From a bacterium (GTDB lineage Bacteria; Patescibacteriota; Minisyncoccia; Ryanbacterales; GWA2-47-10b): a stretch of DNA of 43,421 nucleotides. Each line of letters begins with the position of its first letter. Position 1 is the first letter of the stretch. The stretch spans positions 1 to 43,421 of the forward strand of contig JAQBTR010000007.1 in the NCBI GenBank assembly GCA_027624915.1. Reading direction: 5' to 3'. The notes under the pieces were generated by a model, which worked only from the letters and a program-made list of their open reading frames with translations, searched no databases and was not told the origin of the DNA. Shown in pieces: positions 1 through 38,874 of this stretch. The position numbers were made by a program, and so were the translations under genes.

Positions 1-3000
1 GAGGAGTTGGTGGAGGTGGGGGTGGTTGATTGCCAGATGGAGGAGGTGGAGGTGGTTGGTTACCGGCTGGTGGGGGCGGAGAACCACCGCTTGTATTACA
101 AGCAGCAGACTCGAGTGCAACATACTGTGTGCCACTAGGTGACCTCGAGACAGAAACTGCAGTCCAACCGCTAACACCATTATCCCAAGATATTTCATAC
201 CAAAGATATTGTGAGTCGCCAGATCCATTTCGTTCTGACCTATCTGAAATTACCCTTCCTCGTACATGCCTTTGAGCCTCTCCAACTTTAGTCGCCGAAA
301 TGTTCGGATTTTGACGAACATTTCTATCAGATAATGAAACTACTCGATCGCCAGCTCTAAAATTCAACGTGCCAACCGGATCCGATGGAAAACGACCATT
401 TTCACGACATTGTCCTGGTTGTAGAGGTGGATTACCTGATGGTGGAGGTGGTGGTGGAGGGCCTGAAGTATCAATTGCTTGACACTGATTACGTCCAACA
501 ACTAAATCTGCGTTTGGATCTGGATGTGGGGTGAAGTCGCATGTGCCTAAATACGCATATGGTCTAGGGCCCGCTTCGCCAATTGCATAGGCAGGACTCC
601 CACCACCACTCCAACCGCGTACATCAGGAATACATGTATACGGATTTTGATTAACAACTCGTCCCGGTCTACTGCCATCTGGATTAGCCCCTGCCGGAGC
701 TGACCACCAACCTCGATCGAGACCCATGAGTTGAGTATTTGGATCATAACCAGTACTCATACAACCGGGTACTATGCCTGGACTATTAATAAGTTCTTCA
801 GGGGTTAGATATGTATCCAAGAATTCTTCAGGAATATAATCTGCTTGATGTGACGGTATCCCAAGATATTTGTATGGTCCTTCTGAATACGCACGTGTCC
901 AAAGCCAACGAGATGCGAAATTAACATCAGTCGTTCCAATACCATTGAGACTCATACCTCTAAGCCAATTAGGGTTCCACGCTTCGATTACTAACTTCAA
1001 ACCCTTTTGGTTTATATCCCTATCAATAGCTGGGTTAGGACTACTTGGACCCGTTTGAACTCCCCCAGCATCAATCGGCCAATCATATTTACCATTACAC
1101 CCACCGGCCGTAATACCACCTGCTGGCAAGTTATGAATATTGCACGCATGGTATGGACCCCATTCATTGATACTGATACCTCCTACTCCTCCCCAATTTA
1201 CTTTTGTTGGGTCAAAACCAGCTGGACAAAACTTAGCTATATATGCATCCCGGGCGGCCGCAGAACAACCGGTTGTCCCCCCTTGTCTAATTAAAAGATT
1301 TGCATCATCGCATGCATTAATAAAATCATTACAAAGTGAAACAACGTAATTTCCTGGTTTAGTAAGACGAGCTGTTGATACTGGACTGTCTGGTGGGTCA
1401 AATGTGACACTCCCACCATCTGGTCCACTTTTCATCCGCCACACAACTGGGATACCAGTTGGTGGATTAGTCCATCCGTTAAGTCGTGCCAATAAAGTAT
1501 CTCCCGCCCTATACGAGCCAGATACATCTGGTCCAGCATTAATTACTGTTTCAATATTTGGTGCCCCTTCGGGCTTCAAAAAATCATCAGCAACCCAACC
1601 GTCTGCACCGCCATCAAAATCTACCCACCACCACCAATAGTTACTTGTTGTCCGTATCAACTGTCCCCATATGGGGCCAAACAAAAGCTGCCCACTAGCA
1701 TTAGCCGATTGTCCTCCAGATGCATCACCACCTGGATCCTTTCTAACGTTTACATTATCGTTCGTCTGTACCCTCATTCCAACTCTCAAATTTCCAGTAT
1801 AATTTTGTGGAGGAGGTGGAGGTGTTCCAACAGGAGGTGGCGGAAGACCTGGTGGAGGTGGAGGTACTCCTGGCGGTGGCTCAACTGGCGTTGTACCCCC
1901 CGCAAGACACATTAAACTTGGGTCAGTGTTTTGTCCTACACAAACCGACCCCCCAGGACATGCAATACTAGCCGAGTAACAATAATTACCTAACCCGTCT
2001 CCATTATTGTCTTGATATTTACAAAGTCTTATACCGTTGTTGCTACAGGAATAGATGCCTGCTTCTGATATTGAACATGCGCCAAAATTACAAACTTCTG
2101 AACCTGCGGGAGCTGGTGGATTAACCTCTGGATTTGGTTTTAACCTAAACCAAATATCAGTATACCCACTATTAACAGTTACATTAGCTGTAGCGCCAGG
2201 CTGCCAACTACCAGAGGAGTGACAACCAACCCCATTGGAACAAACGGAATGTTCAGCAGATAAGTATCCGGGACTAGGAATATCAACAGTTACATTATAA
2301 CTACCTGGATTAAGTGCTCCTTCTGACCAATCTGGATTAGCGTATGATTGTTTGTTGGTTGGTCCAACAATCGTAATTGTTGTTGTTATACCGACAGATG
2401 AATTGTCTGCACGAATTACGAGGCCCTGCATTCCAACTACAATATTTGCCGAAGGTGGTGGAGGTGGAGGTGGTGGAGGTTGGTTACCTGAGGGTGGTGG
2501 GGGTGGTGGAAGAGGTCCTCCAGTACAGTATGCTGGGTTGTTTGAGTTTTTGGCTTGATATGTAATAGTATCTGATTCTTGCCCAGCGATACGAATTTTA
2601 TACTTATACGTTGCACCATCACAAAGTGCTGTTGCGGCTGTTGCTTGCCATGCCCCATTACCATCACCGCCAGTAACCGTAACGCCAGTAGTCCAACCAC
2701 CAAAGTTACTGTTCCGGTCAGAAAGATTTACGTCAACTGGACTGTTGGGATAGTTACTCGTTATAATTATTCTAAACTGCTGCCCCGCGACAACCGTTGT
2801 CGGATCAATACGGGTGAATGGCTTATCACCTCGAACATTCACAACAATCGATGCTATGTCATGATCACCAAAAATATTTATATCAAGAATAATGCCATAC
2901 GCACCAGGCTTACTAAAACTCAAGGTGGCGGTTTTATTATTCCCTGATGTATTAATGTTTACGCCACTCTGGTTAGTTAATTCATACCATGTAGCAACAC

Positions 3001-3187
3001 CAAGGAGTGCCTGGTCTATGTTTGCTGTAAGAACAACCGGCTCCCCAAGATTAACCGTTATATCATTATTTGGTGAAATTTTTGCAAAACCAGCTGATCC
3101 AACACTATATGCAAATGCACTACTAGCAAATGCCAAAAATCCAACTCCTATAATCGACCCGAAAAGTACCTTTGAGAATCTACTCAT
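1..3187 (-). CDS. giant secreted modular protein with SH3b-like domains and polyproline linkers (3' end beyond window)
   Basis: Reading the minus strand from the ATG at 3185-3187, I translated 1062 codons to the left edge without a stop, so the C-terminus is missing. The N-terminus is a classical signal peptide (about residues 1-26, ending SSAFA). After it come an Ig/PEGA-like beta region (about 250-350), a cysteine module (about 360-425) shared with the two genes upstream, an SH3b-like domain (about 463-537, with NVNVRKDPGG and DGWVADDFL), an Ig-like segment (538-635), a Trp/Cys-rich part, a second SH3b-like domain (about 925-1020) and at least four polyproline linkers such as PPPPPSGNQPP. 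No catalytic motif is visible. The product is probably extracellular or wall-associated; binding or adhesion is inference. A terminator at 3275-3306 separates it from the 1233-aa gene, so it probably has its own promoter in 3188-3274, where I could not find a convincing -35/-10 pair. Confidence 0.85.
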   Translation of the reverse strand, partial: MSRFSKVLFGSIIGVGFLAFASSAFAYSVGSAGFAKISPNNDITVNLGEPVVLTANIDQALLGVATWYELTNQSGVNINTSGNNKTATLSFSKPGAYGIILDINIFGDHDIASIVVNVRGDKPFTRIDPTTVVAGQQFRIIITSNYPNSPVDVNLSDRNSNFGGWTTGVTVTGGDGNGAWQATAATALCDGATYKYKIRIAGQESDTITYQAKNSNNPAYCTGGPLPPPPPPSGNQPPPPPPPPPSANIVVGMQGLVIRADNSSVGITTTITIVGPTNKQSYANPDWSEGALNPGSYNVTVDIPSPGYLSAEHSVCSNGVGCHSSGSWQPGATANVTVNSGYTDIWFRLKPNPEVNPPAPAGSEVCNFGACSISEAGIYSCSNNGIRLCKYQDNNGDGLGNYCYSASIACPGGSVCVGQNTDPSLMCLAGGTTPVEPPPGVPPPPPGLPPPPVGTPPPPPQNYTGNLRVGMRVQTNDNVNVRKDPGGDASGGQSANASGQLLFGPIWGQLIRTTSNYWWWWVDFDGGADGWVADDFLKPEGAPNIETVINAGPDVSGSYRAGDTLLARLNGWTNPPTGIPVVWRMKSGPDGGSVTFDPPDSPVSTARLTKPGNYVVSLCNDFINACDDANLLIRQGGTTGCSAAARDAYIAKFCPAGFDPTKVNWGGVGGISINEWGPYHACNIHNLPAGGITAGGCNGKYDWPIDAGGVQTGPSSPNPAIDRDINQKGLKLVIEAWNPNWLRGMSLNGIGTTDVNFASRWLWTRAYSEGPYKYLGIPSHQADYIPEEFLDTYLTPEELINSPGIVPGCMSTGYDPNTQLMGLDRGWWSAPAGANPDGSRPGRVVNQNPYTCIPDVRGWSGGGSPAYAIGEAGPRPYAYLGTCDFTPHPDPNADLVVGRNQCQAIDTSGPPPPPPPSGNPPLQPGQCRENGRFPSDPVGTLNFRAGDRVVSLSDRNVRQNPNISATKVGEAQRHVRGRVISDRSERNGSGDSQYLWYEISWDNGVSGWTAVSVSRSPSGTQYVALESAACNTSGGSPPPPAGNQPPPPPPSGNQPPPPPPTP

Positions 3188-3274
3188 GAATTAAATATAA
3201 AAATAGTAATGAATGGTTCTGTGACCACTATAATTAGTATAGGACGTACACGACCATATGGCTTGTGTATAACA

Positions 3275-3306
3275 AAAACCGCCCCGCTATTAGCAGGGGC
3301 GGTTTT
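3275..3306 (-). terminator. Rho-independent terminator of the 1233-aa secreted protein gene
   Basis: Arms AAAACCGCCCC (3275-3285) and GGGGCGGTTTT (3296-3306) form an 11-bp GC-rich stem. On the minus strand it is followed by a T run. It lies just after the stop codon at 3315. Confidence 0.85.
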
Positions 3307-3314
3307 GTTATTTA

Positions 3315-6300
3315 CTAGTTAGTGTCCAATAGATTTCGTAAATCTTCGAGGCTAGAACGTAGACCATCGAGAATGTTTGCTGTGTTTACTGTTCTTGGAG
3401 CTGATACATGACCCGCTGGGTCAATAACATCAACAAATACATGAGTGGCAGAAGAGGTTGTCTCTGAATCAGGTAAGCTCGAAGGACGCCATTCACAAAG
3501 AACAACATACACAGAGTTTCTACTTGGAGTTACAACAAGCTCTCCGTTGGGGCCATAGTCACCATATTGTCCTGAACCATTTTTTTGATATACAGCCCAC
3601 TGCGACGTTCCTTCTGTGAGGGTACAGAATTTTAATCTTTCTGGTGCCTGAGCGGTCCAACCAACACGCACTGACTCTCCTCGATTGATGGTTAGCTTAT
3701 TGTTTCGTGGAGTAAAACCTCCTCCAGATAGTGGCGTTTCATTCATTTTTGATACACCAACGGTAATCCGCGGAACATCGCCCTGCTGTGAAGCGTTATA
3801 AAATCGAGTACCACCACATGCCGGACATGCAATCATATAATTGTAATAATATTCTGATTTAGGCTCTGGTGCTGTAAGTCCAGTTACTTCAGCTATGTAT
3901 ATACCTGGTCGTGCTTGAGAGTAACGTTCATCGCCAACGCCTTGCCACTCCTCGATTAGACACCCAGGAAAATGACCCAAACAACTCTCAATCTGTAAAC
4001 CACTTCCTGGTGGTGGTATAACCGTCATATACCTAGATGACTGTGGATGACCAACGCCCCCAACGTCTGTACGTGTTTGAAACCCAAAACCGCTTCGCGA
4101 TCCCGGAACTGGATTTAATGTGTTACAACGAAAATCACTAGGAGCACATATACTTTCTTGCGGAAATACTGGTCGGTATATTTCTTCTCGAGCATCGGCG
4201 CACCATGTATGCTTTTCACCTATTTCCAAATATTCGCGAGCAAACCCCGTAATCCACTCGCCAAAATATCCAGCCTTCCATCCTGTCGCCCACGATATGA
4301 TTCGTGTGCTTGGATACCCCGAGCAGTCTTCTCGTACCAAGTTTGGATTTCCAACTCGAATTTTAACCATGTCACTTTCAGGGCCAAACCAATCATAAAA
4401 TCCCCATTTCATGCGGACTGCAAAATTATATTCTCCATCTACCGGAGCACGAAGATTCAAAGGAATTGTTATTTCTTCACCTGGTGCTACTGTCTTTGGT
4501 AATTTGACTGGAAGTTGAGGTCTATCAAACTGACCATCATTAATGTAATGCATCCAGTTAGCTTCCAAATCAATGAATGGAGGGGTGTCTACCGTAACCG
4601 GGTTAAGATCATCGTGGTCCCAACTTTCGGTGCCTATATTTTTAAACGTAACTGTACCTGTAAATACTTCGTCAGCGCCAACGCTTGTCGGAAGATTAAT
4701 ACTAATAAACTCTGCTTCATATCCTGGCTTCTTATTTTCACTGGCATATTCCTGTTGTCGCAAAAGTAATCGAGAATCTATTGCAATCCAATTTGGACGC
4801 TGACGAAGGAGCCATTTGTTTTCTTCTGGCATGAGTTTTATAAACTCCTCTGCAACATATCCATCTGTTCCTGTTTCAAAATCAACAAAGTACCAATCAA
4901 ATGCAGCACCATTGGCGGGTCCCGCATGAATCACACCACGAATACCATCGACTTGAGTACCGACGGCATTGCCGTCCGGTGCGTTTCTTACAGTGAGTCC
5001 GCTTCCTCCAGTAGTTGGAGTTACATACGCTCCAAGAAAAAACTCTTCTTCGACTGGTGGAGGTGGCGGTGGAGTAGCTCCACCACACGAAACAAGAAAG
5101 CTACTAGCAACCCAACCATCAGGTCCAGAATTAAAATCTACTTCGCGCCAAACGTGTCCTCCTGTCGTTTGCGGACCATCAGTCACCGTCCCCTCTGTGT
5201 TGTGTAGTTGAGAACCGATACGGTTACCGTTTGCTGTACCACGTACATTAAGACTTGTCGCAGCATTTGTATTTACTCGCACACAACTACCAATACCGAT
5301 CTGTCCAGCTGGAGGTGGTGGAGGAGGAGTAGGTCCTTGTGGTGGAGGTAGTGCACCACCTCCAGAACATAGCTGGCCTGCACTAGCTGCACTACCAACA
5401 GAGCCATTACAACTTCCACCAGCTGGACAAGAGATTGGGGGTGACCAACACCATTCAAGAACTCCATCAAAGTTTTGATCAAAAGCTACACAGGTCTTGA
5501 AAGTACTTCCGTTAGCACACTCGGCATTTCCTGCCTGACTCTGGCTACAAGTTCCATATCCACACGCACCAACATTACCACCTGACGGAGGTGGATTCAC
5601 AGTTGATGGGGATGGCGGTGGAGGTGGTTGTTGCCCAGGAGGGCCACCGTCTACACATTTATTTGGCTCTGGGTGACAATCACATGACGGTCTCGTCCAC
5701 GGTCCTACAGGAGATGTAATGACCGAGCCATCCGGATTAAACTCGTTGCATCCACATGCAGAGTTGTACCATCCACCTACTCCAGAAATGTAAGCTGGTT
5801 GTGTAAGTGGATTTGGACATTGTCGTTTGATTTCTTGTTCTTCACAGAAGTTTGAATTTGGTGAACATTCGCAAGGTCCTCGAACGGTATTATTGATTGC
5901 ATAACCACCTGATTCAGTCCAATAAAAACACGATGAGCAGCTAAGGTTTGGTTCGTCTAAATACCAACCACCATCAGTACTATCCCAAAGATCTGTAGAC
6001 GCACCAAATGTACTACAGTTTGGCGTATCTGTTTTTATGAATGAACCGTCCACCTCTGCTAACCAATAGTTTTCGTTCTTGCCCCACTCTCGAACTTCCC
6101 ACCACCAATATCCATCCAAATATGTATGATGGAGACTTACAAGACGAGCTGGACGATTAGCATTTGATAAACGAATGATGTTATCGCCGATACCTGGAGA
6201 CCTACGAGTATTAAATCCGTACACAGTTGTTATAAAATCTCCTTGAGCAAACGGGCCATTATACGTCGTTGGGACTGTGCCGGAAGGTGGGGGTGGCTGT

Positions 6301-7016
6301 TGTCCCCCACTACAATTTGCTGGTGTTATGCCTAGTGCAAAATTACTTTGAAACTGACCACATCCATTGCTATTACAAGCTCGTACTTTGTATCTGTGAG
6401 AAGACCCATTTACTACACCACGATCAGAAAATGATGTGGCTGTTGGTCTGCTAACTTCTGCATACGGAGTAACGCTATCGTCAGGCTTTCTGTGTAATTC
6501 ATATCGGGTTGCTCCTGTTACTACGCTCCAAGACACATCAACTTTTGATTCATTGTTGCCGGCGCACTGCCCACTTGCACTTAGGTTTGCTGGGATTGAA
6601 AGTGTTACAGGAGATGGAGGTGGTGGTGGTGTTACTGGGTCTGCGTATTTAAAAATTACCCTTTTTATTTTTCCAGATTCTACACTAACATTCTTGGTAC
6701 AGTTTGAATCGTTGCACGTGACCGCACGAAAATTATCTGGCTCACATGGAGTACCAGAAAGATATGAACACTCACCTACGCTTGCAGCAGTATTGGGCGT
6801 TACATATACAGAATGCGTGCCGTTTGCGCGACTCAGATATATTACAGAGCATCCACTTTTCTTGACAGTGTCCTGGCTCTCCCAAATTCTACCTTCCGGA
6901 CAGTTACCCTCTGTCATATATTGTCGATCTACTCTAAGACCCCCAACAGCTAAAGCCGTATGTGCCAAACCTAAAAATAGAGTAACTCCTACTACTAAAG
7001 TGAGTGCTTTTCGCAT
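3315..7016 (-). CDS. secreted multidomain surface protein: FN3, three SH3b-like, cysteine module, NBR1-Ig-like
   Basis: A 1233-residue exported protein with a signal peptide (1-23, ending HTALA). Visible parts in order: a small Cys-rich head; a fibronectin-III-like domain (about 140-235, VDVSWSVVTGATRYELHR); an SH3b-like domain (250-330); a Cys/Trp module containing GVGGWYNSACGC (about 405-455); a cysteine module (482-550, ACGYGTCSQS to CPAGGSC); SH3b-like domains at about 571-644 (TSLNVRGTANG, DGWVASSFL) and 659-729; a segment resembling the NBR1 central Ig domain (about 765-885, TVTFKNIGTESW and later a Gly-x-Tyr); and Ig-like beta regions to the end. Linkers are polyproline. There is no sortase motif or C-terminal membrane anchor. 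SH3b and FN3 domains usually bind wall or glycan; no enzyme domain is present. A -10 box TATACT lies 6 bases before the ATG. It follows the 360-aa paralog at 7067-8149 by 50 bp. Confidence 0.9.
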   Translation of the reverse strand: MRKALTLVVGVTLFLGLAHTALAVGGLRVDRQYMTEGNCPEGRIWESQDTVKKSGCSVIYLSRANGTHSVYVTPNTAASVGECSYLSGTPCEPDNFRAVTCNDSNCTKNVSVESGKIKRVIFKYADPVTPPPPPSPVTLSIPANLSASGQCAGNNESKVDVSWSVVTGATRYELHRKPDDSVTPYAEVSRPTATSFSDRGVVNGSSHRYKVRACNSNGCGQFQSNFALGITPANCSGGQQPPPPSGTVPTTYNGPFAQGDFITTVYGFNTRRSPGIGDNIIRLSNANRPARLVSLHHTYLDGYWWWEVREWGKNENYWLAEVDGSFIKTDTPNCSTFGASTDLWDSTDGGWYLDEPNLSCSSCFYWTESGGYAINNTVRGPCECSPNSNFCEEQEIKRQCPNPLTQPAYISGVGGWYNSACGCNEFNPDGSVITSPVGPWTRPSCDCHPEPNKCVDGGPPGQQPPPPPSPSTVNPPPSGGNVGACGYGTCSQSQAGNAECANGSTFKTCVAFDQNFDGVLEWCWSPPISCPAGGSCNGSVGSAASAGQLCSGGGALPPPQGPTPPPPPPAGQIGIGSCVRVNTNAATSLNVRGTANGNRIGSQLHNTEGTVTDGPQTTGGHVWREVDFNSGPDGWVASSFLVSCGGATPPPPPPVEEEFFLGAYVTPTTGGSGLTVRNAPDGNAVGTQVDGIRGVIHAGPANGAAFDWYFVDFETGTDGYVAEEFIKLMPEENKWLLRQRPNWIAIDSRLLLRQQEYASENKKPGYEAEFISINLPTSVGADEVFTGTVTFKNIGTESWDHDDLNPVTVDTPPFIDLEANWMHYINDGQFDRPQLPVKLPKTVAPGEEITIPLNLRAPVDGEYNFAVRMKWGFYDWFGPESDMVKIRVGNPNLVREDCSGYPSTRIISWATGWKAGYFGEWITGFAREYLEIGEKHTWCADAREEIYRPVFPQESICAPSDFRCNTLNPVPGSRSGFGFQTRTDVGGVGHPQSSRYMTVIPPPGSGLQIESCLGHFPGCLIEEWQGVGDERYSQARPGIYIAEVTGLTAPEPKSEYYYNYMIACPACGGTRFYNASQQGDVPRITVGVSKMNETPLSGGGFTPRNNKLTINRGESVRVGWTAQAPERLKFCTLTEGTSQWAVYQKNGSGQYGDYGPNGELVVTPSRNSVYVVLCEWRPSSLPDSETTSSATHVFVDVIDPAGHVSAPRTVNTANILDGLRSSLEDLRNLLDTN

Positions 7017-7066
7017 GTTTCTAGTATATAACTAATATGACTTTTTTGATGTGTACAAAAATATCT

Positions 7067-8149
7067 CTATTGACTACATAATCTCAAGTATGTATCTGTC
7101 GCCCATCCGTCTGGGTCGGAATCAAAATTGATATCCCACCATGTATAGCCTGAAGCTGTCGTAGGTCCACCAGTGACCGTTCCTTGTGAACCGGTTGGTT
7201 GTGAACCACGAATATTATTTCCGATTGCAGCAGCTGAACGTACGTTGAGACTTGTTTCGTCTCCTGTATCAACCTCAACACAACTATTGATACCAATCTG
7301 ACCTGATGGTGGCGGTGGAGGTTGTGAACCGCATGACCTAATATATTCACCTACAACCCATCCATCCGGATTTTGATTAAAATCAACATTCCACCATGTA
7401 TATCCATTTCCGATTTGAGGACCGTTTGTGACAGTTCCTGTAACACCAGTTGGATGGGCACCAAGTACATTATTGCCTAAAGAAGCTACGGACCGAACAT
7501 TGAGACTTGTTTCGTCTCCCGTGTTTACACGAACACAGGAGCCGATACCAATCTGACCTGATGGTGGCGGAGGGGGTGGAGGTGGCGGTGGGCCAGCGGG
7601 AGGTGGTGGGGGTGGCGGAAGCGAACCAACCTGACAAGAAATCAAACTTGGGCTACAAGAACATGGTTGCTCGACCCCATCTCCAGCATATCTACCAAGC
7701 CCGTCCCAAAGATGACATCCACAACTAGATTGATACCAACCGCCAACACCAGCTACCCATAGATTGTCTTCATTAGCACACTCTCCTTCACCAGCTAGTG
7801 GCGGAGGGGGTGGAGGTGGCTGTTGTGGTGGTGGAGGAAGAACTGGCTGTTGCGCACAACCAGGAAAACCACCACTGCCAACATTCTGACACAAACTTCC
7901 AACAGGACACATAATAGTATTTGTCCAACAAATATCTTGATCTAAATCGCCGTCTGGATCCTCAGACACACAAATACGAAGGCCATTGCCATTACACTGG
8001 ATTGTTCCGATTTGACTGAATGTGCACGGTCCGTGCTCACACGTATACGGAAGATCGACTATTGTGGGTGGCGGTGGAGTTTGAGCAAAGGCTACGTATG
8101 CAAAAATTGACCCAAAAATAACGCTAAAAAACTTTATATACGTATACAT
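7067..8149 (-). CDS. secreted protein with cysteine module and two tandem SH3b-like domains
   Basis: I chose the ATG at 8149 (360 aa) because it begins a clean signal peptide (MYTYIKFFSVIFGSIFAYVA, cut near FAQ). A start at 8194 would add 15 residues in front of it. The mature part holds a cysteine module (about 35-98; CEHGPCTFSQ to CPVGSLCQ), a Trp/Cys module (about 125-166; GVGGWYQSSCGC), and two SH3b-like domains (about 195-275 and 280-360) sharing GDETSLNVRS and a WW[ND][VI][ND]F core followed by DPDGW or NPDGW. The protein ends right after the second SH3b. Polyproline linkers separate the blocks. It is the smallest of three adjacent paralogous architectures and shows their minimal plan. 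Export and surface binding are inferred from the family; the ligand is unknown. Confidence 0.87.
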   Translation of the reverse strand: MYTYIKFFSVIFGSIFAYVAFAQTPPPPTIVDLPYTCEHGPCTFSQIGTIQCNGNGLRICVSEDPDGDLDQDICWTNTIMCPVGSLCQNVGSGGFPGCAQQPVLPPPPQQPPPPPPPLAGEGECANEDNLWVAGVGGWYQSSCGCHLWDGLGRYAGDGVEQPCSCSPSLISCQVGSLPPPPPPPAGPPPPPPPPPPSGQIGIGSCVRVNTGDETSLNVRSVASLGNNVLGAHPTGVTGTVTNGPQIGNGYTWWNVDFNQNPDGWVVGEYIRSCGSQPPPPPSGQIGINSCVEVDTGDETSLNVRSAAAIGNNIRGSQPTGSQGTVTGGPTTASGYTWWDINFDSDPDGWATDTYLRLCSQ

Positions 8150-8221
8150 GAAAATAGAATACAGCCTTATAATAGCTGTATTTATTGTACCCATCTACCC
8201 TAGGATTGTATTGTGTATAAA

Positions 8222-11200
8222 TTATCGCCGTGCGTACTTGGCGTAAAGATGTGGAACCACAAAGAGTGTGGTTATAGTTGAAAATGAAAGACCAAAGATA
8301 ATAGAGAATCCTAAGGGGCCCCAGAGCTCGCTTGAAAGCGTAATAGGCAAAATACCAATCACAGTGGTGATAGTTGTAAGTACAATTGGCTGAAGCCGAG
8401 ACCTGCTTGCATCTCGAACTGCTTCATGGACATCCATGCCATTTTCTTGTCTGTTACGGTTAATGCGGTCAATCAAAATAATGGCGTTATTAACCACGAT
8501 ACCGGTGAGTGCCACAATTCCGATAATACCAGGGAAACTAAGTGGTTTATCTACAAGTACAAGTCCGAAGAATACACCGATAAGCGCAAGTGGAATTGTC
8601 ACCAAAATAAAGAGTGGTTGTCTATACGAACCAAACTGTAAGACCAAAGCACTCGCAATTAAGAAGATCGCCAAAATCATCGCTCGAAACATGTCGTTGT
8701 ATGATTCTTGAATATCTTCACGCTCACCGCCCATCAATACCTCATATCCAGATGGTATAGTGATATCTGACATTTTTTCTGATACTTCAGCAAAAACATC
8801 GGCACTCGCCACGCCTGTCTGCACCTGACTTGTTACGCGAATTACTCGTTTGCCACCATCATGTTGAATTGCAGGACGCGTCCCTGAGAGTTCTGTGGTG
8901 GTAAAAGCTGAAAGAGGTATGTCTCCGCGCCTAGTCGCAATGGTAAGCGACTCAATCGTATTGATATCAACAATATTATTACGTCCATCAACAAATGTTC
9001 GTGGATTTAGTGCATATTTTACGGATACATCAATTTCATCTCCACTCGTACGTATAATAGTTGCATCAGTGCCTGACACGGCATTTCTCAATTCAGATGC
9101 CAATTCAACCGTACTTATCCCATACAACTCTGCTTTTGCTCGATCAACTCGCAACAAAAACTCACCACTTGTTTCTTGAATAGTTGTCTGTACATCCGTA
9201 GCTCCTGGCACTGACTTAACAATATCCTCGAACGTACGCCCAAGACTCTCAAGAATTTCAAGATCCTTTCCTTTGAGAACAATCTCAACTGGAGCACCAG
9301 ACGGTGGACCTCCCTGAATACCACTTACCGATACCTTGTGGTTGACCTCTTTATTAAAGAGTCGTTGGTACTCGTCTACAATTACTAGACTCGTATCATC
9401 TCGCTCATCTCTAAGATTGATAAGTATGCTTGATAGGTGGCTCCCAGAACCACCCCCGTCCTGACTTCGTGAACGTCCAATGTTAGTCGCAAATGATTGA
9501 ATACGCGAGTCTCTTGCTAAAATACTTTCTACTTCCTCAGTAGCCCGTGAAGTCTCTTCTAGTGGTGTGCCAATAGGCATACGAACATTAATAAAGAAAA
9601 AGTCGAAGTCTTCTGACGGGAACATGTTTACTTGCAAAACTCCTATTATTGGAAGTGACATCCCACCAACAAAAAGTAATATCAAAATTCGCATGAACCA
9701 CTTCTGTCGTCTTCGTGAATTAAGAAATTCTTTTAGAGTCTGGTCATAGCTTGAAGTAATTTTGGCAAACATCTCATCTCTATCAAACCATTGTTTTTTT
9801 GATTTTTCTTGATCGTGTCCATTTTTAAGCCAATACACTCCAAGCGTTGTAACAAGTCCAAGGGCAACAAACAATGATGACAACAGTACAATCGTTACCG
9901 TAATTGGAATATGTTTTACAAACTCTCCCAAGATACCGGACATCAAAAACATAGGAACAAACGCAAATACCGTTGTAAGAGTCCCTGATATAAGTGGTAA
10001 TTTAAAATCATTCACCGTACGACAAGCAGCATCGAATGGTGTAAATCCACGTCGCACATGACGATGCATACCTTCTGTTACAACAATTGCACTATCAATT
10101 AAAATACCAAGTGCAAGAATCAAAGAAAACAATGTCAAAAAGTTAATAGTACTTCCAATCGCAAGCAACACGGTAAATGTAATCAAAAAACTGAGTGGAA
10201 TAGCAAGACTTGCAAGAGTTGCCTCACGAAATCCTAAAAAAATAAACAGAAGGATAAACACCAAAACAACAGTACCAATGCCATTGTTTGTCAGTTCTGT
10301 TAAATCTTTTTGAATTTGCTCGGCTTGGTCCTCAATATCCTCAATGACAATATTTACTGGAAGAAAATCAGCACGTGCCTCGTCCATAATGACATTTGCC
10401 TCGTTAACAATGTCTATAATATCCCCTCCCTCCGTCTTAAAGACAGACATCGTGATTGATGGAAGTGCCTCACTGCCCTCAACACTCAATCGTGAAATGG
10501 TGCTCTCGGTACTCAAGCCATCAATCACTTCGGCAATATCATCAACCAAAATAACAACATCTCCCTTGGCAGAAACTGGTATCTCCCTAACATCATGTGC
10601 CGAAAGCACACGACCCGAAAGTCGCACACTGTAACGAACACCGGCAGTTTCAATAGAACCCGTTGGAATGTTTGCATTGGCACGTCTGATGGCTCCCGTA
10701 ACTTGACCGATCGATAGCCCAATTGCATCTAGTTTTGTCTTATCTACAATTACTTGGATTTCGCGTTCGCGGCCTCCCGTAATCTCTACCTTTGAAACAT
10801 TTGAAACACGTTCAATCTCATCCTCTAGGCCTTCTGCAAAACTTTTTAATTGTGTTACAGAATATGGACCACTCAAAGAAAAGGTATATATAGACTCGTC
10901 GGAAAATCGTATCTGTGTAACAAATGCACTCTCTGCATCAATCGGCAAATCTCGTTCTGCCTCATCAACCCGTTCTTTAAGTTCGTCTATTTTTTCTTGA
11001 GTATCAGCTTTTGCATCAAACTCAACAACAATAGAAGACATCCCCTCGCGTGAAGTGGAAGTAACTTTTTCAACCTCGCTAAGTGTGAGTATCTTTGCTT
11101 CTACTACATCTGTTACGAGTTCCTCCACCTCTTCAGCGCTCGCTCCGGGAAAGGGAATGGAAACAACACCAATCGGAATGTTTACCTCGGGGTTAGATTC

Positions 11201-11317
11201 CTTTGGTAACTGAAAAATAGAAGTAGCCCCCAAAAGAATTGCGGCAATAATTATGATATACGTGAATCTATGATGTGAGATAAAAAATTCCCACATTCCT
11301 TTCGGTTTTTCGTGCAT
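8222..11317 (-). CDS. RND-family efflux transporter permease
   Basis: The 1031-residue length and two-halves layout match AcrB/HAE-type RND pumps. A transmembrane helix near residues 17-38 is followed by a large outside domain, then a helix block containing GIGTVVLVFILLFIFLGF and the TM4 region GILIDSAIVVTEG, where the usual paired Asp is Asp-Ser. A second outside domain and a C-terminal helix block (GIVALTGIVVNNAIILIDRI) follow. RND pumps use the proton gradient to export drugs, metals or lipids. It starts one base after the adaptor's stop, so the two are co-transcribed. No TolC-like outer-membrane gene is in the window, which is notable if this organism has a single membrane. The substrate cannot be predicted. 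Confidence 0.93.
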   Translation of the reverse strand: MHEKPKGMWEFFISHHRFTYIIIIAAILLGATSIFQLPKESNPEVNIPIGVVSIPFPGASAEEVEELVTDVVEAKILTLSEVEKVTSTSREGMSSIVVEFDAKADTQEKIDELKERVDEAERDLPIDAESAFVTQIRFSDESIYTFSLSGPYSVTQLKSFAEGLEDEIERVSNVSKVEITGGREREIQVIVDKTKLDAIGLSIGQVTGAIRRANANIPTGSIETAGVRYSVRLSGRVLSAHDVREIPVSAKGDVVILVDDIAEVIDGLSTESTISRLSVEGSEALPSITMSVFKTEGGDIIDIVNEANVIMDEARADFLPVNIVIEDIEDQAEQIQKDLTELTNNGIGTVVLVFILLFIFLGFREATLASLAIPLSFLITFTVLLAIGSTINFLTLFSLILALGILIDSAIVVTEGMHRHVRRGFTPFDAACRTVNDFKLPLISGTLTTVFAFVPMFLMSGILGEFVKHIPITVTIVLLSSLFVALGLVTTLGVYWLKNGHDQEKSKKQWFDRDEMFAKITSSYDQTLKEFLNSRRRQKWFMRILILLFVGGMSLPIIGVLQVNMFPSEDFDFFFINVRMPIGTPLEETSRATEEVESILARDSRIQSFATNIGRSRSQDGGGSGSHLSSILINLRDERDDTSLVIVDEYQRLFNKEVNHKVSVSGIQGGPPSGAPVEIVLKGKDLEILESLGRTFEDIVKSVPGATDVQTTIQETSGEFLLRVDRAKAELYGISTVELASELRNAVSGTDATIIRTSGDEIDVSVKYALNPRTFVDGRNNIVDINTIESLTIATRRGDIPLSAFTTTELSGTRPAIQHDGGKRVIRVTSQVQTGVASADVFAEVSEKMSDITIPSGYEVLMGGEREDIQESYNDMFRAMILAIFLIASALVLQFGSYRQPLFILVTIPLALIGVFFGLVLVDKPLSFPGIIGIVALTGIVVNNAIILIDRINRNRQENGMDVHEAVRDASRSRLQPIVLTTITTVIGILPITLSSELWGPLGFSIIFGLSFSTITTLFVVPHLYAKYARR

Positions 11318-11318
11318 A

Positions 11319-12926
11319 TTATCTAAGTTCTACTTTTTCACCCACCTCAAGTCCCCGAACCGATTTAAGAATCGTCTCATCTTTTGAAATTCCTCCAATG
11401 ATCTCTACAGACTCCCCTATAACACGTCCAAGTGTGACTTCGTGTTCGGTAATATGATTATCGTTATCAAGCTGGTAAACGAATGCTCCAGCAGAAGTAA
11501 CCTTTACTGACTGTAATGGAACCAAGAAAGCTTCACTTCTTGTTGGGTCTTCTTTGATATCTACAATGAGGTTTGCGAACTGGCCGACAATAAGGTTTTC
11601 TTCGCCCTCGGTAATTGCAACCTTAATCTCAACTTTTTGTGTTGTAGGATCAATACTTGGTGCAATTCGAGAAACAACACCTTTTATATTTCCTTCTATA
11701 TCAACAAGGCCTCCTTCTTCGATGAGATTTTTGTTTTTGCTGTTGATAAACGCCTTAATCTGAAGTCCTGATTTATTTACCACTGATACAATCGGCTGTC
11801 CCGGGTTAACTAAGTCTCCCAACCTGACAGAAACAGATGCTACAATTCCACCAATTGGAGAAATGATAGCCGTTTTTGAAAGTCGTGAACGTGCAGATGC
11901 AACTTGAGCCTCTGCAACCTCAACGACAGCTTTTTGTGCGGCAAGTTGTTCGTCAGATGCGCCTGCATCACGAAGATTAAGTTCATCACGTGCGAGATCA
12001 AGCGCATTTCTTGTTGCTCGATATTTTTCATTGGCACTAGATAGTGCAGTAATTGATCCATTGATTGACGTGCGTGCGAGAGAAATCTGTGATTTAAATC
12101 CTACAATTTGAGCTTCGGTAATACTCCCAGTTGCGAACATGTCATTGACAAGAATAGACAAAAGATCCAAGAGTGACTTTACTTCAAGGAGATTAGCTCG
12201 AACGCCATCAACCCGTGAAGGAACATTAGTATCGTCTTCAAGTGTTGTCGTTGAATTTTTCCACCCCTTAAGGAGGCTCTCAATAAAAATGCGCTTTGCC
12301 TCAATGTCAATTTCGAGTTGGGGTCCCGTCAAATAGATAAGCGTGGGATTGTCTGTCTGTGGATCTTGAAAGAATTGGTCAGCTGTCTGTCGAACAGCAT
12401 CATCAGACTTTGAATATGCATCACGAATAGAATTGATCAGGCCAATACGCGCATCAAGAACTGAAGCTTCAGCGCTCCTGACACGTGATTCGACAATTTG
12501 TCGTTCCTCACCTCTCGTGCCACGCTTCAATTCTTCGAGTCGTGCTTGTGCGGCCGCCACATTTGCTTCGGCCTGCTCAAGATCGGCCGCAAGCTCAGAC
12601 CCTGCCAAGCTTACAAGAAGTGTACCTGGTCGTACCTCGTCACCAATGAAAACATGGACTCGACTCACGCGCTCTGATACTTGGCTCTTAAGTTCTACCT
12701 GTTCGAGTGACTCAACAACACCAACGGCGCCAATACCAGCTTCGTCTCGCTCAAACTCTGCTATATGTAAAAGAGAAGCTTTTGAAATTCGAGGCTCTAC
12801 GGGATTTGGGACTCCGCCTCCTATAAATACGCGAATAACAAAGCCGACCGATGCCACCATAACAAAGCCTGCAAGAAACATACGTCCTCGGCTTTGGCCA
12901 TATATATAAGAAAAAATACGCTTCAT
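11319..12926 (-). CDS. RND/HlyD-type membrane-fusion (periplasmic adaptor) protein
   Basis: A membrane anchor (about residues 12-32) is followed by a biotinyl-lipoyl half (VVESLEQVELKSQVSERV), a long alpha-helical hairpin (ADLEQAEANVAAAQARLEEL and LAAQKAVVEVAEAQVASARS), the second lipoyl half (IISPIGGIVASVSVRLGDLV) and beta-barrel domains. About 85 extra residues between the hairpin arms (around RQTADQFFQDPQTD) make it longer than a typical AcrA (535 against about 400). I chose the ATG at 12926 rather than a GTG at 12935 because the -10 box occupies 12936-12941, which puts the transcript start at about 12929; the mRNA would be almost leaderless. It links the RND pump at 8222 to the outside layers. 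Confidence 0.9.
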   Translation of the reverse strand: MKRIFSYIYGQSRGRMFLAGFVMVASVGFVIRVFIGGGVPNPVEPRISKASLLHIAEFERDEAGIGAVGVVESLEQVELKSQVSERVSRVHVFIGDEVRPGTLLVSLAGSELAADLEQAEANVAAAQARLEELKRGTRGEERQIVESRVRSAEASVLDARIGLINSIRDAYSKSDDAVRQTADQFFQDPQTDNPTLIYLTGPQLEIDIEAKRIFIESLLKGWKNSTTTLEDDTNVPSRVDGVRANLLEVKSLLDLLSILVNDMFATGSITEAQIVGFKSQISLARTSINGSITALSSANEKYRATRNALDLARDELNLRDAGASDEQLAAQKAVVEVAEAQVASARSRLSKTAIISPIGGIVASVSVRLGDLVNPGQPIVSVVNKSGLQIKAFINSKNKNLIEEGGLVDIEGNIKGVVSRIAPSIDPTTQKVEIKVAITEGEENLIVGQFANLIVDIKEDPTRSEAFLVPLQSVKVTSAGAFVYQLDNDNHITEHEVTLGRVIGESVEIIGGISKDETILKSVRGLEVGEKVELR

Positions 12927-12935
12927 AGTGCGCAC

Positions 12936-17094: not shown

Positions 17095-17577
17095 TTATTC
17101 TGTAGTTTTTATTACATTAGCACTAAATCGAACTACTAATTCTGGCGTGGCAGTCGAATTAGTTTTAAGCATGAGCTCGCGAGTAATTTTTCCGGTTTCT
17201 TGTGGCCCGTGTGCAAGTGGATCATAAGTTGCTGTCAGAATCTCTTTACCACCGGCAGGAATGGTAACTCTCTGACCCTGTTGGCCATGCATACCAAAAA
17301 CAAGAGAGCCAATCTTTCCTCCTGTACACATACAGCTTGTTGCAGCCTGCGTTATCGTTACATCTTGCTCGCCGGTATTTTTAAGTACATACTCTGTGCT
17401 AACTTTACCTCCAAATATTTCAATATCACCAAAATCATAAAAATCTTTCTCTGCGGCAATAGCAGATGTGATAGGTCCGCTATTATTTGTTCCAGCGCGA
17501 TCTGAATAATTAAACGCAAGTGCAATGCCTATAACTACTATCACTAATGCTCCTATAATATATTTGTTTGTATTCAT
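17095..17577 (-). CDS. membrane-anchored DUF1573 domain protein
   Basis: A 160-residue protein with an N-terminal signal anchor (about residues 6-23) and one DUF1573-type Ig-like domain outside the membrane: DFGDIEIFGGKVSTEYVLKN, the characteristic cysteine pair in TSCMCTGG, an ATYDPLAHG strand and a C-terminal strand PELVVRFSANV. The function of DUF1573 is unknown. The CxC pair and its place between a rhodanese fusion and a CopB pump suggest metal or thiol chemistry at the cell surface, which is inference. The gene sits 17 bp after the rhodanese gene and one base before the ATPase, so it is co-expressed with them. Confidence 0.85.
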   Translation of the reverse strand: MNTNKYIIGALVIVVIGIALAFNYSDRAGTNNSGPITSAIAAEKDFYDFGDIEIFGGKVSTEYVLKNTGEQDVTITQAATSCMCTGGKIGSLVFGMHGQQGQRVTIPAGGKEILTATYDPLAHGPQETGKITRELMLKTNSTATPELVVRFSANVIKTTE

Positions 17578-17594
17578 AAAAAAATTATTATTAA

Positions 17595-18419
17595 CTATTT
17601 ACCTTCTTCTATGTCCACCTGAATCGACACAATTGCTTCAGGTGTGTTTTGATCATTAGAAGGTATAAATACGGTACGCTTAAAAACATCCAGAGGTTCT
17701 TCATGGAAATCTGGATCAAACACAACTGTCAGCAAAGCTGAATCACCAGGCTCTATTGATGAATTAGATATCTTTGCTGATGTACAGCTACAACTTGTTG
17801 TTAGCTCGCCGATCTCAAGAACTTTATTACCATTGTTATTAATATTGAATATAGTCTCTACTATACCTCCGTATTGTGGAATAACACCAAAATCATGGAT
17901 TGTACGATCAAAACTAATATGTGCGCCATCACTATCTTTCATCATTGAGGCTTGCTCTTTTGGATTATACTCACCGATTTCTGTATATGGATATCCATCT
18001 TCTTCCCAGTGAATCATCCCCCCAGCAATACTTTTAATGTTGGTATACCCGAGGGAGCTCATAATGTCATACGCGGTTTTGCTACGTGCACCAGAACGAC
18101 AGTAAATGATTATTTCTCTGTCTTTTTCATCCTGTCCAAGATTAATATCATTGAGCGACTCTTGAGATAGTTTTTGTACGGGCAAAAGTGTTGCACCTTG
18201 TAAATGTACGACCTCATATTCTTCTGGGGTACGCACATCAAGAAGAACAAAATCCTCTCTATTCTTGATTTTATCGGCAACTGCCCCTGGATATATTTCG
18301 TATGATTCGACGATGTCGTCATGATCAGTCACTTCTTTTTTATCTGAGCCTGTCCTTGTAAAGAATAGAATACCTGCAGCGACCAAAATAACAACCAATA
18401 TACTAACTATTGTTTTCAC
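17595..18419 (-). CDS. exported rhodanese-DUF1573 fusion protein
   Basis: A 274-residue protein with an N-terminal membrane anchor (about 3-22). A rhodanese domain follows (about 45-150: FVLLDVRTPEEYE, active-site loop CRSGARS with the catalytic Cys, and a SIAGGMIHWEEDGYP end). The second half (about 165-270) is a DUF1573 domain with HDFGVIPQYGG, the cysteine pair in TTSCSCTSAK and TVVFDPDFHEE. Rhodaneses move sulfane sulfur or act as thiol transferases. Joining one to DUF1573 and placing it under a CsoR-type repressor ahead of a copper pump is unusual. The start overlaps the csoR stop by 4 bases, so translation is coupled. Confidence 0.88.
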   Translation of the reverse strand: MKTIVSILVVILVAAGILFFTRTGSDKKEVTDHDDIVESYEIYPGAVADKIKNREDFVLLDVRTPEEYEVVHLQGATLLPVQKLSQESLNDINLGQDEKDREIIIYCRSGARSKTAYDIMSSLGYTNIKSIAGGMIHWEEDGYPYTEIGEYNPKEQASMMKDSDGAHISFDRTIHDFGVIPQYGGIVETIFNINNNGNKVLEIGELTTSCSCTSAKISNSSIEPGDSALLTVVFDPDFHEEPLDVFKRTVFIPSNDQNTPEAIVSIQVDIEEGK

Positions 18420-26916: not shown

Positions 26917-27723
26917 TCAGATAATATTTATGTATCTATATAATATCATGGAGAGTGGCGACCACATAAGCAAGAAGGCTGCTAAACTTCCAGTTGCGAG
27001 AAAAGGTGCAAACGGAACTTCTGTCTTAAACTTGTAACCCCTAGCAAAAATCATGATTATGCCATAAATTGCGCCAGACCAAATGGCTATAAGAAAGGCA
27101 AGAAAAATCGCAGGAAAGCCCAAGAAAAGTCCTAGAGAAATAGATAACTTAGCATCTCCAAAGCCCATCCACTCACCCTTTGAGATAAGCCATATACCGC
27201 CGAAGAAAGAAAAAATACCGATTGCGGCAAGCACGTCGCCAATCCACTCGCTTGGCGCAAATGATCCGATTGACCAAAGGTACACAAGCTCTGTGACAAC
27301 TGCTATGACAAAAAGAGTAGCTGAAAATTGATCAGGAATAATCTTGTGTCTTATGTCGTACACGGTGATTGCAAGAAGTAGAGAAAAGAATGAAACGGCT
27401 AGAATGTACTGCACGACATCCATCAACACAAACTGCTCGCTAACAATACTTGGGAACACCAGGGCTACCAATACAAAAATAATACCACCAGCTAATTCAA
27501 CTAATGGATACTGTGCCGAAATCCCGCTACCACAATATCTACATTTCCCCCTAATAACCACATAACTAAAAAGTGGTACGAGATCGTGCCAACCTAGTTT
27601 TTTGAGGCATGAGAAACATCGAGAACGTCCTCGTACGGACACCCCGGTATTCACACGAAGAACAAGTACATTAAGAAAACTTCCGATGGCTATTCCAAAC
27701 AAAAACAAAAGCACGTATATCAT
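26917..27723 (-). CDS. pilD: type IV prepilin peptidase (A24 family)
   Basis: An inner-membrane aspartic protease that removes pilin leaders and N-methylates the new end. All 268 residues fit: GIAIGSFLNVLVLRV at the start, a zinc site made of CFSC and CRYC (about residues 38-41 and 63-66), and the two catalytic Asp in TVYDIRHKIIPDQ and GFGDAKLSISLG. Eight or so membrane helices are visible. It opens the minor-pilin operon and would also process the major pilin at 32156. Confidence 0.95.
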   Translation of the reverse strand: MIYVLLFLFGIAIGSFLNVLVLRVNTGVSVRGRSRCFSCLKKLGWHDLVPLFSYVVIRGKCRYCGSGISAQYPLVELAGGIIFVLVALVFPSIVSEQFVLMDVVQYILAVSFFSLLLAITVYDIRHKIIPDQFSATLFVIAVVTELVYLWSIGSFAPSEWIGDVLAAIGIFSFFGGIWLISKGEWMGFGDAKLSISLGLFLGFPAIFLAFLIAIWSGAIYGIIMIFARGYKFKTEVPFAPFLATGSLAAFLLMWSPLSMILYRYINII

Positions 27724-27842
27724 GTACCACTATATTATCATATTTACTTAGTAGTTCTAATTAGAATATCCTTTTCTCCACACCCCCCATGAGATAGAAT
27801 AACCACATAATCTAAGGCTGGATTTACCAGAATACTCACACA

Positions 27843-29438
27843 ATGAACAGAATTACTCAAAATCTTAATATAATAGCGGTTCCGCTATTTTTTATTTTGC
27901 TCGCCTTGGTGGGACTAGTGATTTATCAGGATTATGGATATTCGTGGGATGAGGGCATCCAGAGAGCTATCGGCCTTCATACGTATAATTATGTATTACA
28001 TGATAGCCAAGAACTCTTTTCTCACCCTGGACAATATTACGGAAGCTTTTTTGAATTCGGACTCATTGGTGCTGAAAGGATATTAAACCTCACATCTACC
28101 CAAGACATCTACTTCATGCGACACTTGGTGAATTTCTCATTCTTTTTTGCAGCAATTTTTGTGTTTTATAGGATTGCAAAAAAAAGATTTGATAATCACT
28201 GGATATCCCTCCTGGGGGTATCCTTCTTGGTGCTGAGCCCGCGAATATTTGCAGATGGTTTTTATAACTCAAAAGATATTATTCTTCTTAGCCTATTTAT
28301 TTTTGCGTTTTATTTTATAATTAAGTTTTTTGAACAGCCATCTTGGCTTAATATAATACTGCTTTCTTTCTTCTCAGCGCTCGTCATTGACTTGCGACTC
28401 ATTGGACTTTTAGTCCCAGTAATTGTTGTTCTTATGGCAAGCATGTTTATTATATTAGTTGACAGCTGGAGCATTAACTGGAAACAAATCTTATTCTATA
28501 TTTTTGTATATGGTGTTTTAACTATAGTTTTTGTATATATATTATGGCCTTATTTATGGCCTGACCCAATTGGTAACTTTCTAGAATCGTTACGTATTAC
28601 AGGAAATTACTCACCGCAGGCAAACATGAAAATCTTCTATCTCGGCTCATACACTACAGCGGATAGCCTTCCAGCACACTATATATTCCTTTGGCTGCTG
28701 ATTACGACGCCTGTCTCATATACCGCTCTTTTTATGTTCGGCCTTAACGCATACAGAACCAGAGTGGTAGATTTGATGAATCTACAAAAATCTAAAACAG
28801 ACCTAATTTTTCTTCTGTGGTTCTTCTTGCCCTTATTGGCACTAATAATTTTAAAACCAATCATCTATGTTGGTTGGCGGCATTTTTATTTTATATATCC
28901 TGCATTCATTTTAATTGCACTTGTCGGACTACATACACTTTCGCAATATATAAATAACAAAATACACTCCCCAAATTTTCAAAGAATAGTTCTCTCACTT
29001 GTATCTGTATTACTACTAGTTAATACTTTTTCAGTTGGACTTTTTATGTATAAAAATCATCCATACCAAAATATGTATTTCAACCTTCTTTCTGGCGGAA
29101 TTGATACGGCACAAAACAACTTTGAGCTAGACTACTGGGGACTGTCCTTCCGAGAAGGTCTAGAATATATAGCAAAAAATGATTCGGACCAGTTAATACC
29201 CATTTCAATTCTTTATGGATCACCACTAGAACTTGAGATTTTGCAAAATGACGTCAAACATCGCTTTGAAATTGTTATGATAAATAACTTAGAGCAGAGC
29301 GCAACCCCACCAAAATACTTATTAACAAACTTTAGGTGGGGACAAGGACCTGACTATTCTCTTGAAAACTTAGAAGACAAAGAATTTTACTCTGTTCGTG
29401 TTGAGGGTACTAAAATCATGTCTATATACAAGCTTTGA
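27843..29438 (+). CDS. GT-C type membrane glycosyltransferase (PMT/ArnT-like, GT39 family)
   Basis: A 531-residue integral membrane protein with about 11 helices. The first outer loop has the acidic pair of the GT-C fold (GYSWDEGIQRAIG), and SPRIFADGFYNSKD resembles the second loop of PMT/ArnT-like enzymes, which move sugars from a lipid-phosphate carrier. WDEG and HPGQYYGSFFEFG are in the expected places. The acceptor is not known. A -10-like AATACT lies 6 bases before the ATG. It heads a plus-strand trio with a methyltransferase and a second GT-C-like protein, lying between two pilus loci, so pilin or surface-protein glycosylation is a reasonable guess. Confidence 0.8.
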   Translation: MNRITQNLNIIAVPLFFILLALVGLVIYQDYGYSWDEGIQRAIGLHTYNYVLHDSQELFSHPGQYYGSFFEFGLIGAERILNLTSTQDIYFMRHLVNFSFFFAAIFVFYRIAKKRFDNHWISLLGVSFLVLSPRIFADGFYNSKDIILLSLFIFAFYFIIKFFEQPSWLNIILLSFFSALVIDLRLIGLLVPVIVVLMASMFIILVDSWSINWKQILFYIFVYGVLTIVFVYILWPYLWPDPIGNFLESLRITGNYSPQANMKIFYLGSYTTADSLPAHYIFLWLLITTPVSYTALFMFGLNAYRTRVVDLMNLQKSKTDLIFLLWFFLPLLALIILKPIIYVGWRHFYFIYPAFILIALVGLHTLSQYINNKIHSPNFQRIVLSLVSVLLLVNTFSVGLFMYKNHPYQNMYFNLLSGGIDTAQNNFELDYWGLSFREGLEYIAKNDSDQLIPISILYGSPLELEILQNDVKHRFEIVMINNLEQSATPPKYLLTNFRWGQGPDYSLENLEDKEFYSVRVEGTKIMSIYKL

Positions 29439-29516
29439 TAGCTTGTTTGGCATATTTGCACATGGTATCGTAACGTGTCGAAGTGATTGATATAACAAAT
29501 ACTTTTTATCCAATTC

Positions 29517-30149
29517 ATGTCTAAAACAGATCATTTATATATGCCCGAGGACCATATGGACCAGCTATACTGTTCTAAAAATCCTCTTGTTAGATATGTA
29601 CACAACAATCGCCTCCTAAACCTAGCCCACCGCATGCCCGCCAAAAGTGGTCTTACTGTTCTTGACGCTGGCTGTGGAGAAGGACATTTATTAAAACTCT
29701 TACACAGCAAGCGACCAGACAACTCCTATTTTGGCGTAGATATAACCGAAGAGGCTCTAGCAAAGGCACGACTACGCTGCCCCTTTGCTGATATAAAAAA
29801 AGAAGATATTTCAAAACTTTCCATAGCTAGCAATTCTATAGACGTAGTAATGTGCACAGAAGTCATTGAACATATTTTTAACTACCAAGACGTATTGAAT
29901 GAATTTACTCGTGTTCTAAGACCAGGTGGTATACTCCTAATCACTTTCCCAAACGAAATAAATTGGAGGATAAGTAGATTTTTACTTAGAAGAAACCCGA
30001 TTATAGTGCCAGATCATGTAAACAGTTTTAACCCAAAAACTATGAAAAATGCACTGTATCTAAACTATGTGACTAAAAAAAATCTTCCTTTTCCTTTCCC
30101 ATTTTACCTCTCTTTAGGAACTCTCATGAAATTTAAAAAAATGGCCTAA
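29517..30149 (+). CDS. class I SAM-dependent methyltransferase
   Basis: A 210-residue protein with the Rossmann-like core of Methyltransf_11: motif I VLDAGCGEGHLLKLL (about 49-63), an acidic strand end in FGVDITEEAL, IKKEDISKLS for the adenine contact, DVVMCTEVIEHI and LRPGGILLITFPNE. The acceptor cannot be told from sequence. Being between two membrane glycosyltransferase-like genes suggests a sugar or lipid-linked substrate, but this is inference. Confidence 0.85.
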   Translation: MSKTDHLYMPEDHMDQLYCSKNPLVRYVHNNRLLNLAHRMPAKSGLTVLDAGCGEGHLLKLLHSKRPDNSYFGVDITEEALAKARLRCPFADIKKEDISKLSIASNSIDVVMCTEVIEHIFNYQDVLNEFTRVLRPGGILLITFPNEINWRISRFLLRRNPIIVPDHVNSFNPKTMKNALYLNYVTKKNLPFPFPFYLSLGTLMKFKKMA

Positions 30150-30190
30150 GACCGTTGCTTTTGTAATAGGTAAGCCACTACAATAATAGA

Positions 30191-32101: not shown

Positions 32102-32105
32102 GAAG

Positions 32106-32144
32106 CTATCAAAAAACCCCAGATACACTGGGGTTTTTTGATAG
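32106..32144. terminator. bidirectional terminator between the Tmtc-like gene and the pilin
   Basis: Perfect 17-base arms CTATCAAAAAACCCCAG and its complement with a 5-base loop; both strands have an A/U flank. Confidence 0.95.
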
Positions 32145-32155
32145 TACGCTTGTAA

Positions 32156-32737: not shown

Positions 32738-32879
32738 GTATACCTATTTAAACTGTTAAATAATTAATTATTTTTTTAAAACTCCTTTTAGAGAGTTTTG
32801 TTCGACCGCCCATACTTGGGTATATAGCTATTATACCAAAGGTGTAGGTGTACTAGTAAAGACGCTGTGGATAATATAG

Positions 32880-34094: not shown

Positions 34095-34095
34095 A

Positions 34096-35160: not shown

Positions 35161-35163
35161 ATA

Positions 35164-37289: not shown

Positions 37290-37291
37290 AG

Positions 37292-38192: not shown

Positions 38193-38205
38193 AAAGTACT
38201 AAACA

Positions 38206-38802: not shown

Positions 38803-38874
38803 ACTTTAATTAAAAAAGTTCTCTAGGAATTGCTATAAAATTTGATAGTAATTCCTCTATATATAATAGTATGT

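Follow-up and report, generated by a model that had tools for sequence, protein, structure and literature searches.

Neighbouring secreted proteins with SH3b domains and family-restricted cysteine modules in a Ryanbacterales genome

Large modular surface proteins are already known from Patescibacteria. The Absconditicoccaceae have been described as carrying very large surface proteins that contain adhesion domains (PMC13059738), the large proteins of a Patescibacterium have few full-length homologues and are suspected of domain shuffling (PMC11809585), and Paceibacteria that are parasitic on archaea highly express secreted proteins with peptidoglycan-binding and immunoglobulin (Ig) folds (PMC10936435). 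A further point of comparison is SH3_3 (PF08239). A review of surface display in monoderm bacteria counts it among the non-covalent anchors that bind peptidoglycan and gives 4KRT as its structure (PMC5817068). On surface proteins of Ryanbacteria, the literature that we searched had no paper. Here we describe three neighbouring genes, P1, P2 and P3, that fill the first 8.2 kb of the contig JAQBTR010000007.1 (G000:C10) on its minus strand. The window analysed is this entire contig of 43,421 bp, from a genome of 839 kb that is 98.6% complete. What is new in these proteins is a set of clade-specific modules that match no Pfam family. We consider it fairly probable that the three products are Sec-exported, non-enzymatic surface proteins that are held on the wall and display cysteine and Ig/FN3 modules, with P2 and P3 carrying a local duplication.

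The trio resembles the modular adhesion-type proteins of Patescibacteria (PMC13059738, PMC11809585) in being large and exported, in having few or no full-length homologues, and in showing signs of domain shuffling; its signal sequences, SH3b domains, FN3 domain and Ig-like stretches fit a large, exported, multi-domain protein with adhesion-type folds. Unlike those proteins, it combines SH3b domains and polyproline linkers with two new cysteine modules, domains of the FhaB, DUF2341, concanavalin and integrin kinds were not seen in it, and it falls short of the 4,000–6,000 amino acids of those systems. With wall-attached SH3_3 proteins of monoderms (PMC5817068), such as the SH3b part of the endolysin of phage phiSM101 (4krt), the trio shares SH3b domains, which sequence and model place in tandem in P2 and P3; unlike in such proteins, no catalytic domain is recognised and the SH3b domains are scattered among the new modules. 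The closest counterparts are single P1-like proteins of Candidatus Ryanbacteria (L057/L043 in genome G004 and L041 in G002), which have the 8-Cys module, SH3b, an Ig-like stretch and a domain of 270 amino acids in the same order as P1, but they are encoded by single genes at another locus, have no P2 or P3 beside them and differ in their C-terminal half.

Export signals, SH3b domains and cysteine modules

The three consecutive minus-strand reading frames noted in a preliminary description of this DNA are all present. P1 (2–3187) has at least 1,062 amino acids, its open reading frame (ORF) being open at the 3' end. Because the window is one complete contig and P1 runs off its end at base 1, this truncation is an effect of the assembly; the missing C-terminal end had no match elsewhere in the same genome. 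P2 (3315–7016) has 1,233 amino acids and P3 (7067–8149) has 360. The ORF of P3 opens at 8194 (375 amino acids), but we favour the start at 8149 because of a hairpin at 8158–8182 and a canonical signal peptide that begins at 8149. All three proteins carry Sec-type signal sequences, read from the sequence, that end in AFA, ALA and AFA, respectively: P1 at 3110–3187 (..ASSAFA|Y, with a hydrophobic core), P2 at 6948–7016 (..HTALA|V) and P3 at 8084–8149 (..YVAFA|Q). Runs of 3–10 prolines recur in each of them, one of several such linkers in P1 lying at 2453–2509. The C-termini of P2 and P3 have neither a transmembrane helix nor an LPXTG motif as read from the sequence, the end of P1 being absent from the contig; by contrast, an SH3b protein on contig C13 of the same genome ends in a transmembrane helix.

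A local profile search found two SH3b copies in P1, three in P2 and two in P3. These are SH3b-1 (1565–1795, 85.8 bits) and SH3b-2 (140–367, 70.9 bits; Pfam SH3_3 E-value 0.0076) in P1; the divergent SH3b-a (6024–6257, 78.1 bits), SH3b-b (5082–5306, 89.6 bits; 61% to P3) and SH3b-c (4827–5048, 82.0 bits) in P2; and SH3b-1 (7328–7558, 100.5 bits) and SH3b-2 (7073–7303, 100.1 bits) in P3. Seven of the eight copies found thus lie in the trio, the eighth belonging to another protein of this genome that is membrane-anchored, a count biased towards the locus because the profile was built from the copies of the trio. That these are SH3b domains is supported from three sides. Pfam SH3_3 matches 7 of 10 SH3b copies at E-values of 0.1 or better (best 4.7e-7), with whole-protein scores of the trio that fall under the curated cut-off. 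The bacterial SH3 domains 2kyb and 2kt8 in the PDB match by sequence (E-values 5e-5 and 8e-5). A structural model of P3 contains two SH3b domains with a block-wise predicted local distance difference test (pLDDT) of mostly 70–90 (about 69–82 for SH3b-1, modelled as beta strands, and about 68–90 for SH3b-2), for which Foldseek returned the phiSM101 endolysin (4krt, E-value 2.6e-6) together with other wall hydrolases.

Each of the three proteins also contains one copy of a small module with eight cysteines (8-Cys), at 1892–2104 in P1, 5361–5576 in P2 and 7850–8053 in P3, and each copy is recovered by a leave-one-out profile (E-values 1.4e-13, 2.3e-13 and 2.1e-11). The cysteines are spaced roughly as C-x4-C-x9-C-x6/8-C-x13-C-x6-C-x5-C-x(n)-C, with a C-W/Y pair and a CP, and the spacing pattern by itself arose in at most 5 of 5,000 shuffles per protein. 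A second module, GGW/Cys, occurs twice in P2 (5829–6008 and 5649–5828; leave-one-out E-values 1.4e-4 and 1.5e-4) and once in P3 (7625–7780; 1.9e-7); it is not in the visible part of P1, and outside the window it was found in two further proteins from the bacterial family of the window. The 8-Cys module had no Pfam or PDB match and the GGW/Cys module no Pfam match. Across 92 relatives, 384 and 238 genomes of the class and 287 of the phylum (samples that overlap), the 8-Cys module was found only in the family of the window. Weak matches in other members of the class (E-values 0.02–0.1), which are short and in many cases have in-frame stops, and one in another member of the phylum (3.8e-4), which has three in-frame stops, were taken as chance.

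The signal peptides, polyproline linkers, SH3b-like domains and common cysteine module that the preliminary description had attributed to all three proteins are thus borne out, as is its minimal plan for P3 of one 8-Cys module, one GGW/Cys module and two SH3b domains. The shared build is not uniform, since P1 and P2 carry extra domains and the visible P1 lacks GGW/Cys, and the parts, which had been called novel, are so only in the case of the cysteine modules, SH3b being a known wall-binding domain.

Family-restricted regions and the history of the locus

P1 contains, at residues 637–905 (473–1279), a domain of about 270 amino acids with eight conserved cysteines that is strongly conserved, with invariant His, Cys, Asp, Glu and Trp. 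Convincing matches came only from three genomes of one family (G000, G002 and G004) among 384 of the class, and it was found nowhere else among 380 genomes of the phylum sample; two weak matches in short ORFs (E-values 0.001–0.008) were taken as chance. It had no Pfam and no PDB match, and an AlphaFold model from two sequences reached a pLDDT of 29. Ig-like stretches in P1 were judged by eye. P2 carries an FN3-like domain (6333–6587; Pfam fn3 E-value 0.0026, 42% to the FN3-bearing protein L053 of the same genome) and an NBR1-like Ig domain (4332–4721; Pfam N_BRCA1_IG E-value 0.032) that has relatives in G001 and elsewhere in the class (best E-value 2e-9). Next to the latter, residues 896–1090 of P2 (3747–4331, about 195 amino acids) have no convincing Pfam family and no PDB relative. 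Matches to DUF2752, DUF6182 and Imm72 were rejected as weak, and matches of P2 to PHROG tail proteins, which fall on the FN3-like stretch, were rejected as a sign of phage. Viral contigs matched neither the P1 domain nor the 8-Cys module, phages had no match to P3, and PADLOC gave none.

P2 ends in a leucine-rich segment (ILDGLRSSLEDLRNLLDTN; 3318–3383) whose heptad-like sequence suggests a helix. According to a profile built from four of the five carriers, P1-like proteins, another SH3b/GGW protein and, in the sister genus, a probable metalloprotease with a peptidoglycan-binding domain all end in this type of tail. The tail (..LxGLRxxLxxLQxLL..) is thus seen on L041, L043, L044 and L105, the last of which came from the search, and these are otherwise unlike secreted proteins of the family. 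It may serve these proteins as a common signal for assembly or retention.

The SH3b domains also retain a trace of how the locus arose. SH3b-b of P2 and both SH3b domains of P3 form one group (ultrafast bootstrap 97, SH-like approximate likelihood ratio test 94) with a DNA identity of 68–74%, and because these copies group together and retain that identity, P2 and P3 share a local duplication. SH3b-1 of P1 clusters at lower support (84/74) with relatives from the sister genus. In that genus a P1-like protein occurs in two genomes (39% over 614 amino acids); its gene is single and lies at an unrelated locus, beside genes that read like aspS and a histidine kinase. The earlier proposal that the trio is one family expanded in place therefore holds for P2 and P3 but fails for P1, whose relatives in the sister genus stand alone at a different locus. 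A search of genome contigs with the P1 alignment gave one match, SICQ01000001.1 of Candidatus Ryanbacteria bacterium isolate Baikal-deep-G209 (G004), in agreement with the Patescibacteria origin suspected at the outset; P3 alone as a query found no related locus there. The trio itself, for which the preliminary description had asked whether it stays together in related genomes, was found neither in the 92 relatives nor in any other genome searched, all of which lie outside the genus of the window. Relatives in the family carry single or differently built genes, and parts of the trio occur there in combination with Ig-like stretches, PA14 and CARDB. In a third genus, two large secreted proteins form a different pair, in which 8-Cys-like repeats stand together with CARDB, PA14 and FN3-like stretches. 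A second kind of modular locus lies in a sister genus (L090, 3626–14895), where a small ORF of 138/142 amino acids ending in YWE comes ahead of each large secreted ORF with PA14, CARDB and 8-Cys-like repeats; one large reading is split there into two ORFs, and masked bases are present.

A model for the trio and its alternatives

We favour a model in which the SH3b domains would hold P1, P2 and P3 non-covalently on peptidoglycan. The wall bound would most likely be the producer's own, because neither a sortase motif nor a transmembrane helix other than the signal peptide was seen. The polyproline linkers could serve as rigid spacers. The outward, variable part that touches other cells or surfaces would be formed by the cysteine modules, the Ig/FN3 stretches and the family-specific domain of P1. 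P2 and P3 would have diverged after a block of 8-Cys, GGW and SH3b was duplicated locally, with P1 an older protein, common to the sister genus, that has come to be their neighbour. The trio probably has a role in adhesion, and attachment to a host is plausible, to judge by the types of domain and by published work. Several points weigh against this model. The SH3b domains could bind the wall of a partner rather than that of the producer, and wall binding and a location on the producer's wall are both predictions. The overall predicted template modelling score of the P3 model is 0.29, so that only the local SH3b folds and not the arrangement of domains can be used. The disulfides that the cysteine modules would form are not assured, because the disulfide-forming enzyme VKOR was not found in the genome at its 98.6% completeness (DsbA-type oxidases were not searched), and the regions of about 270 amino acids in P1 and 195 in P2 could be catalytic.

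This last point bears on the idea that the proteins are cell-wall hydrolases or effectors, in which SH3b would aim a catalytic domain within the unmatched parts of P1 and P2 at a neighbour's or the producer's own wall, as in endolysins and autolysins. The top Foldseek matches are indeed wall hydrolases bearing SH3b, and the strong conservation and invariant residues of P1 637–905, a region of no known fold, would suit an enzyme. However, P1, P2 and P3 had no enzyme match in Pfam or NCBIfam and P3 is too small to house any enzyme, and we regard this reading as unlikely. The preliminary statement that no enzyme domain is present accordingly stands for recognised families and is weakened by the two stretches that match nothing. 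The proteins could instead form a scaffold or coat, their SH3b domains and cysteine modules cross-linking and stabilising the producer's surface with no role in contact. Non-covalent wall-binding domains and cysteine-rich modules suit a coat, and SH3-like S-layer domains are among the weaker Foldseek matches, but the architectures vary strongly across members of the family, unlike a structural coat, and searches of sister genera did not turn up the trio; we consider this quite unlikely.

Directly upstream of P3 on the same strand lie genes for an HlyD adaptor and an AcrB-type RND pump (8222–12935), in a lineage usually thought to have no outer membrane. Their spacing raises the idea that P3 and P2 share a transcript with the pump and work as its extracellular partner: the gap from AcrB is 27 bp to the start of the P3 ORF (72 bp to the favoured start), that between P3 and P2 is about 50 bp, and a GC-rich, terminator-like hairpin follows P2 (3282–3298, minus strand), after which P1 starts. 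An HlyD-AcrB-P3-P2 transcript is possible, but AcrB and P3 are separated by a weak hairpin, and relatives of P1 and the 8-Cys and GGW modules are present in family genomes without the pump, which was not found in the four other genomes of the family. Its single order-level relative (about 40%, in G007) has an unrelated gene next to it and no such neighbour, and we hold a functional tie to the pump to be highly improbable.

Other features of the window and implications

The remainder of the window contains a group of type IV pilus genes (26917–39981) encoding a prepilin peptidase, a pilin-like protein, a PilC-type protein, two T2SSE ATPases and PilM. Two adjoining DUF1573/HYDIN-like Ig proteins, one with a rhodanese domain, are encoded at 17098–18419 on the minus strand, and a protein of 203 amino acids with a proline-rich N-terminal stretch (PPPPPEKPPPPSPPPPEPE) and a relative in G015 at 42603–43214 on the plus strand.

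The means by which Patescibacteria recognise other cells and hold on to them are known for very few lineages. A bolder proposal, which we advance tentatively and think rather unlikely, is that the 8-Cys and GGW/Cys modules, the 270-residue domain of P1 and the leucine-rich helix make up a kit, specific to the family, for the surface proteins of Patescibacteria of the Ryanbacteria type, in which the helix would signal non-covalent anchoring or assembly and the cysteine modules would recognise a partner. P3, which holds the main parts in a compact 360 amino acids, is small enough to be expressed and tested for binding to walls and cells, and the new modules are markers by which surface proteins can be spotted in the family of the window.

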